From Streptomyces sp. NRRL WC-3742 (lineage in GTDB: Bacteria > Actinomycetota > Actinomycetes > Streptomycetales > Streptomycetaceae), in assembly GCF_000720635.1 (NCBI RefSeq), contig NZ_JOCF01000112.1, positions 1 through 16,169 of the forward strand: 16,169 nucleotides of DNA, read 5' to 3'. Below the pieces are notes generated by a model that saw only the letters and a program-made list of their open reading frames with translations, was not told the DNA's origin and did no database searches. A program made the translations under genes and the position numbers. This document shows positions 1,903 through 12,195 of the stretch, piece by piece. Each line of letters starts with the position of its first letter. The first letter of the stretch is position 1.

Positions 1903-3705
1903 CTACCCCAGCCCCACCGCTTGCCACCGGTACGCCGCGTCCTCCTGCCACACCTGCAGCTCGCCCTCCACGACCGCCGCCAGGCACAGCCGCCAGTCGT
2001 CGCCCATCGCCAGTGCCACCCGCGTCGCCGGGCGCAGCGTCGGCCGCCACCAGCGGGCCCTGCGCGAGGCGCCGCCGGCGGGCAGCCGCAGCCGTACGCC
2101 GCCCTCGCCGGCCAGGGCGACGGTCGGGCCGCCCCGGTGGCCCGCCATCGCGAGGTCCAGGGCGGGCTCCCCGTCGCCGATCTCGGGGCCCCGCGGGACG
2201 CCGTCCGTGCCCGGCGGTCCCAGGCGGTGCAGCTGCACCGAGCCGTCCGTGCGCAGGGTGGCCGCCTGGGGGCCGGCGGAGGTACGGGCCAGCGCCCCCG
2301 CGCGCAGGGTGCCCGGCGGCCCGAGCGGGGCGGGCGGCTCGCCCGCGCCGGGGCGCCAGCCGTACACCTGCTCCCGGTGCTCGACCAGGACGAGCCAGGC
2401 GCCGGGCCGCTCCTCGGCCGCCGCGAGGACCCGGTCGGCGGGGCAGCCGGGGTGCTCCTGGCCGGTGAGGGTGAGGCCGGGTGCCCAGCGGTAGGAGCGC
2501 AGGGCGCCGCCCGCGGCCGTCCAGGCGGTCAGCTCCCCGGCGGAGTCGACGGCGCCGGCCAGTCCGGCCACCCCGCGCGCCGCCTCCCACCAGCCGGCCG
2601 CCGTCCCGACCCACAGGGTGCCGGCGTGGTCCTCGGCGCAGACGACCAGCTCTCCCTGCCGCCCTGCCAGGCCCGCCACCAGCTCCCGTACGGATCCCGG
2701 GCCCTGGCCCGACGGCGCGCGAAGTCCCGTACGGCCGGGGCCGGCCAGCGTGGTGCCGCTGCCATGCGCGCCGCCGGTGACCACGAGCGGGCGGCCGGAG
2801 CGGTCCGGCAGCACCGCCAGGCCCGCCGTGCGGGCCACCGGCCGGTGGGCCCGCAGCAGTTCCCGCCCGCGCGCCGCCCACGGGCCGAGTGGGGCGGGGC
2901 GGCGCTGCGGCTCGCGGGCCAGCGGCTCGCACGCCCAGTGCGCCAGCTCCTCGGCGTAGCCCGCCGCCAGGAGTTCGGCGCGGGCCTGCTCCACGGCGAG
3001 GCGGTGGTCGAGGCGGCCGTGGTCGGGCAGCAGCAGGGTGCGGGCGAGGGTGCCGACGGCGAACAGGTCCTTGGCGGTGGTGGGGAAGCCGCCGACCTGC
3101 TCGGCCTCGGGCGGCACGTGCCCGGGGGTGAACACGGCGACGGTCAGGGCGTGGTCGAGCGGGGCGAGGAAGGTCAGGTCGATCAGCTTGACCTGCCCCT
3201 GCCCGTCGACGAGCACGTTGGCGGGGGAGATGTCCCGGTGCACCCAGCGCTTGCGGTGCAGCTCGTCGACGATCCGGCACAGCCGGGCCAGCACCTCGGC
3301 GGCGGCCGTCGCCCCACCGCGCTGGGTGCGCGCCCAGGTGTGCAGCGGCACGCCCTCGACCCACGGCGAGATCTGGTACCCCAGCAGTCCGCCCGTGGGC
3401 GCCGCGCCGGGCCGGTGCGGCGCCGGTCCGAGCAGGAAGCTCGGCACCACCAGGTCGGTGATGCCCAGCCGGTGCGCGTTGTGCGACACGTCGTCCCAGC
3501 GCCCCAGCCAGCGGCGGACCTCGGACGGATCGCGCTCCAGCATGATCTTCGCCGCGACGAGCTCCTTGAGCCCGCTGTGGCCCGTACGCACCGCGCGCCA
3601 CACCTCGGCCTCGCCGCCCCGGTGGTGGAACTCCAGCAGCTCGTACTGTTCGGGGTCGAACTCCGGGCCGAACCGGAGCCCGGCCACCCAACGCGAACCG
3701 GACAC
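1903..3705 (-). CDS. Ser/Thr protein kinase with propeller-like C-terminal region
   Basis: The predicted protein has 600 residues. The kinase domain spans about residues 20-290: a degenerate glycine loop (HHRGGEAEVWRA), VAAKIM with the ATP-binding Lys53, the catalytic loop HRDISPANVLVD (Asp158, Asn163), LIDLT in place of DFG (metal-binding Asp176 kept, Gly lost), and TPGHVPPE in place of APE. The key catalytic residues are present, so it is probably active. Residues about 290-600 are rich in Gly, Trp and short beta-like repeats such as GTLWVGTAAGWWEAA, GAVDSAGELTAWTAAGGALR and LRTDGSVQLHRLG, suggesting a beta-propeller sensor or binding module. No membrane helix is visible. GTG 3705 is chosen because ggggg lies 4-8 bases upstream. 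It diverges from the TPR/zinc-ribbon gene, so it probably belongs to the same system and may phosphorylate one of its members. Confidence 0.88.
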   Translation of the reverse strand: MSGSRWVAGLRFGPEFDPEQYELLEFHHRGGEAEVWRAVRTGHSGLKELVAAKIMLERDPSEVRRWLGRWDDVSHNAHRLGITDLVVPSFLLGPAPHRPGAAPTGGLLGYQISPWVEGVPLHTWARTQRGGATAAAEVLARLCRIVDELHRKRWVHRDISPANVLVDGQGQVKLIDLTFLAPLDHALTVAVFTPGHVPPEAEQVGGFPTTAKDLFAVGTLARTLLLPDHGRLDHRLAVEQARAELLAAGYAEELAHWACEPLAREPQRRPAPLGPWAARGRELLRAHRPVARTAGLAVLPDRSGRPLVVTGGAHGSGTTLAGPGRTGLRAPSGQGPGSVRELVAGLAGRQGELVVCAEDHAGTLWVGTAAGWWEAARGVAGLAGAVDSAGELTAWTAAGGALRSYRWAPGLTLTGQEHPGCPADRVLAAAEERPGAWLVLVEHREQVYGWRPGAGEPPAPLGPPGTLRAGALARTSAGPQAATLRTDGSVQLHRLGPPGTDGVPRGPEIGDGEPALDLAMAGHRGGPTVALAGEGGVRLRLPAGGASRRARWWRPTLRPATRVALAMGDDWRLCLAAVVEGELQVWQEDAAYRWQAVGLG

Positions 3706-3757
3706 ACGACCCCCGACGCCTCTTCACCACTGACGATGTGCCGCTGGTGCGCTGACC

Positions 3758-11914: not shown

Positions 11915-12195
11915 GCGAGGTCGTCGTCGAGCCGAACGGGACCGTCGAGCCGGTCGAGGTGTCCTGCCCGGGCTGCCGGGTGCCGCTCGCCCCGCCGTCG
12001 CTGCGCTGCCCCTCCTGCGGGGAGGACCTGACGGCGCTGGTGCGGCTGCGTTACTCCGGACGGATGGACTACAACGCGGCCCTGGAGGCGCTGCGAGCGG
12101 GGGAGGCTTCCGAGGCGAGGGTGCTGCTGCGCCGGGCCCTGGCGGCCGAGCCGGGGCTCGCACCCGCGCGGTCGCTGCTGGCGGCGCTGGGCTGA
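11911..12195 (+). CDS. Small zinc-ribbon/TPR-like protein
   Basis: The predicted protein has 94 residues. A zinc ribbon is formed by Cys19-x2-Cys22 and Cys33-x2-Cys36 (CPGC...CPSC). Residues 54-94 contain a helical pair of TPR type: YNAALEALRAGEASEARVLL then RRALAAEPGLAPARSLLAAL. Its ATG overlaps the TGA of the Hsp70 gene, and ggaggagg lies 11 bases upstream, so it is almost certainly translated with Hsp70. The ribbon resembles those inside the Hsp70 and the TPR segment resembles the large TPR protein, so it may bridge the two. It is the last gene of the module on this strand; the gap downstream leads to an unrelated chaplin gene. No catalytic motif is seen. Confidence 0.8.
   Translation: MSEVVVEPNGTVEPVEVSCPGCRVPLAPPSLRCPSCGEDLTALVRLRYSGRMDYNAALEALRAGEASEARVLLRRALAAEPGLAPARSLLAALG

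Follow-up and report, generated by a model that had tools for sequence, protein, structure and literature searches.

The 16,169-base contig C112 of the 8.74 Mb draft genome of Streptomyces sp. NRRL WC-3742 (hereafter, the window) carries a six-gene locus centred on an Hsp70 in which zinc ribbons occupy the place of the interdomain linker. Judged by this Hsp70, the closest named relatives are Kitasatospora and Streptomyces. The chaperone is encoded together with a GrpE-like protein, a J-like protein devoid of the HPD motif, a large membrane-anchored TPR protein, a small zinc-ribbon/TPR protein and a divergently transcribed Ser/Thr kinase-like protein. We see about an even chance that these products constitute an Hsp70 machine of their own, set apart from the housekeeping chaperones and working as a client-specific ATP switch, with control of a conflict (anti-phage) or envelope-stress response as its likely role. 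Such roles are considered the most likely ones because of the associations of the family. The original prediction, made from the letters of the window, named no characterised system with this exact set, and none was found described in the literature (search limited to open-licence papers, mostly titles, abstracts and passages). It did not foresee the absent HPD, the exchange of the linker for zinc ribbons or the conflict and defence links of some relatives.

Organisation of the locus

The six predicted genes are present with the coordinates and order first given, and both ATGA overlaps were verified, at positions 8588 and 11911. The features are as follows, with the evidence in brackets:

1903..3705, minus strand: Ser/Thr kinase-like protein, 600 residues (Pfam Pkinase, 43.9 bits; kinase domain at about 19-270)
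3706..3900, no strand: divergent intergenic region between the kinase and TPR genes, a putative promoter region (side-by-side listing of relatives)
3901..8004, plus strand: membrane-anchored TPR protein, putative scaffold, 1367 residues (Pfam TPRs, hydropathy, syntenic homologues)
8166..8591, plus strand: J-like co-chaperone without HPD, 141 residues (AlphaFold2 helices, Foldseek matches, alignment)
8588..9313, plus strand: GrpE-like nucleotide-exchange factor, 241 residues (Pfam GrpE, 43.2 bits; charged C-terminal tail)
9344..11914, plus strand: Hsp70, 856 residues (Pfam HSP70, 445.9 bits)
10490..10897, plus strand: zinc-ribbon insert inside the Hsp70, spanning codons 383-518 (limits set by the outermost invariant Cys)
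11911..12195, plus strand: small zinc-ribbon and TPR protein, 94 residues (Pfam matches under the cut-off)

Further Pfam scores at the locus are 45.4 bits for a double zinc ribbon and 87.5 bits for TPR_2. The proposal that this set is separate from the housekeeping dnaK operon is supported, since a normal dnaK-grpE-dnaJ group lies on another contig, C64 (DnaK at 19961-21673, GrpE at 21871 and DnaJ at 22589), which also rules out the zinc-ribbon Hsp70 as the sole DnaK of the genome. A second DnaJ is encoded on contig C12.

The zinc-ribbon Hsp70

The protein comprises a nucleotide-binding domain (NBD, residues 1-377), four zinc ribbons (about 380-520), a beta substrate-binding domain (SBD-beta, 535-637) and a helical C-terminus (644-836). 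The ATPase residues are conserved: LGTTNSV, K70, E171, DLGGGTFD and GGS are invariant in all 26 aligned relatives, as are the 12 zinc-ligand Cys of the insert. The hydrophobic linker is replaced by this insert of about 140 residues, the canonical GEV-KDVLLL-DVTPLSLG becoming GEV-[insert]-DITPKNLG. In Hsp70 chaperones, the linker couples the ATPase to the substrate domain and the HPD motif of the J domain triggers hydrolysis.

The AlphaFold2 model of the Hsp70 (mean pLDDT 83.7, pTM 0.54) also displays the ribbons, a beta SBD and the long helical C-terminus; its domain arrangement is unreliable. Its NBD resembles experimental structures of Hsp70 NBDs (target-based TM about 0.9) and is 42% identical to that of the DnaK structure 7rax over 384 columns. 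In an NBD tree whose bootstraps had not settled, the actinobacterial zinc-ribbon Hsp70s form one clade (96/91), which joins a more distant set of homologues at 100/98, apart from canonical DnaK. The window's clade and a Streptomyces clade with members in defence loci are sister groups (99/84). The 190 residues past the NBD contain six to eight CxxC motifs in the actinobacterial clade and zero to four in the distant set. The Hsp70 family itself was found in several phyla.

The J-like, GrpE-like and TPR partners

The J-like protein was modelled by AlphaFold2 with helices at residues 8-12, 20-33, 38-49 and 51-60, a four-residue loop joining helices II and III. J domains dominate its top Foldseek matches in the PDB, the best reaching E = 0.015 and none falling at or below 0.001. 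The Pfam J domain of the window copy scores under the cut-off (16.8 versus 27.8 bits), and that of one relative reaches 50.4 bits. A textbook J domain is not borne out, the HPD motif being missing in all 22 aligned relatives. Near its expected position, seven aligned sequences from the phylum of locus L045 carry PPER in five cases and SPER in one.

With regard to the GrpE-like protein, the Pfam GrpE score lies above the cut-off and the GrpE chain 4ani_A is matched at E = 2.7e-4, which places the protein among GrpE-type factors with a predicted exchange activity. The TPR protein has a single N-terminal hydrophobic stretch (mean hydropathy 3.08) and, by eye, an internal four-Cys motif. Distant relatives of the small zinc-ribbon/TPR protein are longer than the 94-residue window copy, and long forms with a hydrophobic stretch, seen by eye, occur at L053:11034-12200, L045:11527-12666 and L054:6283-7185. 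A LysM domain was noticed in these forms, by Pfam in L045 and L053 and by eye in L054.

Conservation of the gene neighbourhood

A scan of 84,980 species, one genome each, with the zinc-ribbon/SBD part of the Hsp70 as query returned 67 loci (L024-L090), many of them generic Hsp70 matches. L024-L055 were studied, and L056, L089 and L090 entered the synteny comparison only; the remaining 32 were set aside, most having matched the generic Hsp70 stretch and L057, L063 and L080 other parts. Gene calls in these GC-rich loci were made by script, so that some genes are missed or misplaced (for instance in L043) and starts are approximate.

The TPR, J-like, GrpE-like, Hsp70 and zinc-ribbon/TPR genes keep one and the same order across Kitasatospora, Streptacidiphilus, Acrocarpospora and one uncultured lineage (L045). 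In Yinghuangia, four of the five were recovered by the synteny search and the J-like gene was added by profile, and homologous gene orders exist in one deltaproteobacterial and one spirochaete metagenome-assembled genome. The J-like profile further led to J-like/GrpE-like/Hsp70 blocks in all ten loci fetched from the L045 phylum, three of which (L116, L118 and L121) are close relatives. Ahead of each of the ten blocks stands a gene about 750-1170 codons long; TPRs were found in three of three tested, one being fused to a JAB domain.

Profile scoring placed the GrpE-like and Hsp70 genes on the same strand and at most 1.5 kb apart in 42 of 42 loci, and detected a J-like gene in 39 of them; L052 was excluded from this scoring, many of the 42 are close relatives, the profiles were partly built from them, and L114-L123 were found via the J-like gene. 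In L051 and L113, a short open frame occupies the slot of the J-like gene. The whole six-gene unit is retained in three Kitasatospora relatives compared, one of which (G023) shares no flanking gene save a 26% match of the acyl-CoA-synthetase type. The block is more than a chance association, because it recurs across genera and phyla. The neighbourhood is thus kept in actinobacteria and beyond, and the recurring blocks, together with the 42 GrpE-like/Hsp70 pairs, rule out homologues scattered without a common neighbourhood.

A mobile or phage-borne module found no support in plasmid and phage records: matches covering at least 80% of the query were obtained in one of 256 plasmid records with any match, a 2.8 Mb Streptomyces replicon, and in none of 38 phage records, and nine of the best 20 among the 256 plasmid matches are annotated as dnaK.

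The divergent kinase

The kinase retains the AAKIM lysine, the HRD motif and the metal-binding Asp in all seven aligned orthologues, with a DLT motif standing in the DFG position in the same seven. As a putative Ser/Thr kinase it thus possesses the VAIK-type Lys, HRD and Asp expected of that class; its best PDB match is PknB (1.2e-8). The C-terminal part of about 260 residues (1903-2900, minus strand) has no Pfam match and appears beta-rich by eye.

The original prediction counted the kinase as part of the set. This holds for Kitasatospora and Streptacidiphilus, where it is a partner: within L024-L041, all 13 loci that could be tested have it upstream in divergent orientation, and a contig end truncates five more. 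It is not universal across the wider family, and its membership of a wider conserved core had to be corrected. In the L042 locus (K. indigofera) the kinase is absent; a serpin-like protein, named by eye, lies upstream of the TPR gene in its position (L042:1236-2750). At the level of the genus, the kinase is present in 22 of 70 genomes, one copy being partial, and among 37 genomes covered by both searches, 14 carry the kinase and the GrpE-like gene, two the GrpE-like gene only, none the kinase only and 21 neither, counts that ignore relatedness. Other kinases are found near the module in L045 (30.4 bits, slightly under the Pfam cut-off), L053, L046 and L047, about 4 kb away in L049, and fused to a helicase in L051 and L113. 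From this linkage, we infer that phosphorylation may control the module.

The intergenic region (3706-3900) contains sequence blocks, CAGGATAGTGC and GGGCCTATTCTGATGG among them, that recur in many Kitasatospora relatives. In several relatives, an inverted repeat is centred there on CATGATC/GATCATG and possibly represents an operator.

Defence-related neighbours of the relatives

Some relatives of the module have defence-type genes as neighbours. In what follows, the names McrB-like and XRE, like serpin above, were given by eye unless Pfam or PADLOC is cited. In Streptomyces L046, the module is embedded in about 32 kb of genes that all point the same way except for one open frame of about 200 residues. 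Its companions there are a protein with weak PLD likeness, a regulator taken by eye for XRE-type, a kinase, a DrmD-like SNF2 helicase, a methyltransferase, an MZB/DruE-like helicase, UvrD and PtuA/PtuB. Most of these gene types recur in L047 and L048, the methyltransferase and the large helicase having been scanned in the L048 copy. This defence-like cluster spans L046:1138-20876 with L127, L047 with L128 and L048 with L129, and in L046 and L048 it includes an unassigned protein of 513 and 584 residues as called.

A second arrangement, in L051 and L113, combines the kinase-helicase fusion with a DpdE-like helicase, a DrmMI-like methyltransferase, UvrD and an AAA ATPase called McrB-like, L051 having a DrmA-like gene in addition; the kinase, SNF2, methyltransferase, MZB helicase and UvrD types of the first arrangement are thereby repeated. 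L049 has, a few kb upstream of the module, a JetC/JetD pair of Wadjet type (1367 and 460 bits). In Acrocarpospora (L044) and Actinomycetospora (L055), the module has a CHAT protein next to it. A C-terminal TIR label, precomputed by Pfam, is attached to P0171, P0172 and P0238, relatives of the L053 Hsp70 that fall at two places in the NBD tree.

Proposed mechanism and alternative explanations

We propose that the TPR protein would act as a scaffold holding the set at the membrane as a complex, to which the J-like protein may recruit or tether the Hsp70, with the small zinc-ribbon/TPR protein as a possible adaptor. The zinc ribbons of the Hsp70 could bind the client or the scaffold, and the GrpE-like protein would swap its nucleotide and reset the cycle. 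Because the linker is replaced and the J protein lacks HPD, the textbook trigger of hydrolysis probably does not operate. The chaperone may hold its client slowly and in an ATP-dependent manner, and a slow, client-specific ATP switch is expected rather than a general folding engine. In Kitasatospora, the divergent kinase would gate the module or be gated by it, setting or reading its state. An effector is a plausible client in the relatives.

In the standard view, Hsp70 allostery requires both the hydrophobic linker and the J-domain HPD. The present triad, natural and conserved, has neither but has kept its ATPase residues and a GrpE partner, and therefore allows a direct test of which elements the cycle can do without. 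Should the conflict link be true, the regulators of bacterial immunity would gain a whole Hsp70 machine, complete with a specific exchange factor and scaffold, going beyond the Hsp70 proteins of the CoCoNuT and GAP1-N2 systems.

Several observations weigh against a conserved, conflict-associated machine. The system is rare, since the Hsp70 was detected at E <= 1e-40 in one of 396 phylum-wide genomes, that of the window itself, in a scan that scored few candidates per genome and may miss divergent members at this threshold. The J-like profile was found in 11 of 350 genomes of the L045 phylum and in two of 198 of the L053 phylum, one of the latter (L124) being an ordinary DnaJ with HPD. Nine of ten Hsp70s of the L045 phylum are without zinc-ribbon CxxC pairs. 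The block is also imperfect in places: the profile missed a J-like gene in L034 (at a contig edge), L051 and L113, L052 has only pieces of the Hsp70, no separate kinase gene was called in L048, and in L028 (Kitasatospora xanthocidica) the J-like and GrpE-like genes are 1.4 kb apart (6800-8220, a stretch free of N). The flanks are partly alike in the Kitasatospora relatives, G004 and G017 having six further flanking genes in common. As for defence, neither Pfam nor PADLOC recognised a defence or effector gene in the window, the five chaperone-side proteins had no PADLOC match at E <= 0.01, and inspection by eye and by BLAST against a small reference set revealed no such gene in the roughly 16-25 kb around the module of three Kitasatospora relatives. 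No defence neighbours were recognised by eye around the operons of the L045 phylum or around Streptomyces L050, which falls inside the sister clade. Because no such gene was recognised in the window or near the Kitasatospora copies, a conflict role at the window locus would rest on its relatives.

Among the other readings, a tentative possibility is a pan-phylum, conflict-associated class of Hsp70 machine in which the ribbons would replace the allosteric linker and the HPD-less J protein the trigger. The Hsp70 would thereby become an ATP-driven threshold switch allowing variable effectors to act (TIR, CHAT, nuclease/helicase clusters of DISARM-like type, the Kitasatospora kinase), with a logic like that of STAND or MoxR-vWA systems. 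Rather doubtful, in our opinion, is a chaperone specialised in assembling an envelope or secretion complex, in which the TPR scaffold would keep the Hsp70 at the membrane for the folding or insertion of particular clients, as in a simplified form of the mitochondrial presequence translocase-associated motor (PAM). The N-terminal hydrophobic anchor of the TPR protein, the LysM on distant zinc-ribbon/TPR relatives, an FHA protein with a Clp-type ATPase in L053, a ClpB-like ATPase in L115 and the HPD-less J protein Pam16 of PAM are consistent with it, but TIR and CHAT partners and defence clusters would be unexpected, and by eye no secretion or envelope gene was seen to stay linked in the three Kitasatospora relatives compared.

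That the Kitasatospora module is itself an anti-phage system, with the kinase as effector and the Hsp70 machine as sensor or brake, appears unlikely. Its occurrence within the genus is patchy, some relatives sit in defence loci, and PADLOC finds the kinase weakly similar to the PD-T4-6 and MAD6 defence kinases (best 47.7 bits); however, this similarity may reflect the common kinase fold alone, no known effector is present and the flanks are not recognisable defence islands. It is quite improbable that the module is an ordinary chaperone passenger in Streptomyces defence islands, which collect accessory genes. Defence genes cluster anyway, the association was made without an enrichment test, and L050 and the Kitasatospora loci are without recognised defence genes, but the module of L046 lies inside the nearly co-oriented run whose gene types mostly recur in L047 and L048, and the L051/L113 arrangement repeats five of these types. 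A redundant second heat-shock set, with which the conserved ATPase residues and SBD-beta agree, is very improbable given the HPD missing from all aligned relatives, the replaced linker and the stable extra partners.

Comparison with known systems

The module shares with canonical DnaK-DnaJ-GrpE three homologous partners and the ATPase motifs, but its Hsp70 has four zinc ribbons for the linker and a long helical C-terminus, and it adds, at a separate locus, an HPD-less J-like protein, a TPR scaffold, a zinc-ribbon/TPR adaptor and a kinase. The PAM motor of mitochondria likewise comprises a membrane-tethered Hsp70, a GrpE-type factor and the HPD-less J protein Pam16; the likeness is an analogy only, as the module is without a translocon and its scaffold is unrelated. 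As to DISARM, Druantia, Dpd and Septu, some sister Streptomyces modules are found among DrmA-, DrmD-, DrmMI-, DpdE-, DruE- and Ptu-like genes, whereas neither the window nor the surroundings of three Kitasatospora copies showed a recognisable one. Six window proteins searched against PADLOC gave no match to DrmA, DrmB or DrmC, Drm-like matches being confined to the vicinity of Streptomyces relatives.

The GAP1-N2/DO-GTPase conflict systems, as described in passages of Kaur et al. 2020 (PMC7159879), include HSP70, GrpE and DnaJ, and resemble the module in bringing HSP70 and GrpE together with J or TPR proteins in actinobacterial conflict loci, with kinases in another subset; no FNIII-J fusion was seen for the module. 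GAP1-N2 was absent from the four Kitasatospora genomes tested, including that of the window, and present in five of 11 genomes tested, on other contigs or about 247 kb away. As it did not accompany the module in any of these genomes, such a system was ruled out as the identity of the locus.

In type III CoCoNuT, according to passages of PMC11090510, an Hsp70-like protein, CnuD, has degenerate ATPase motifs. CnuD/CnuCD offers a parallel as an Hsp70 NBD/SBD in a restriction system, with TerY-P kinases and zinc ribbons nearby, but CnuD is described there with HEAT repeats and McrB/McrC partners, whereas the module keeps invariant ATPase residues and J-like and GrpE-like partners. Among the eight window proteins scanned with Pfam, there was no McrB-like GTPase or CnuC partner, and no PP2C or vWA of a TerY-P triad. 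Phage sensing by bNACHT25 depends on DnaJ according to PMC12169576; a chaperone component takes part there too, but it is the host's own DnaJ and not a dedicated set.

Regulatory motifs and neighbouring genes

No exact match to the consensus HAIR (HspR) or CIRCE (HrcA) pattern occurs in the window, and control of the module by HspR or HrcA was dropped on that ground. Tandem repeats of about 10 bp (GTTGANCNCA-like) stand at 8078-8121, directly 5' of the J-like gene; they were dropped as an operator, being absent from the relatives compared side by side. On the kinase side, positions 352-1821 encode an ArsR-like regulator and an S41 (IRBP-type) peptidase. The peptidase was dropped as a partner after no match was obtained in L024-L041, 11 of which show about 1.4-1.6 kb beyond the kinase. 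On the other side of the module, the plus-strand frame at 12375-12611 codes for a short secreted peptide, presumably chaplin-like, which stays adjacent in L024-L037.

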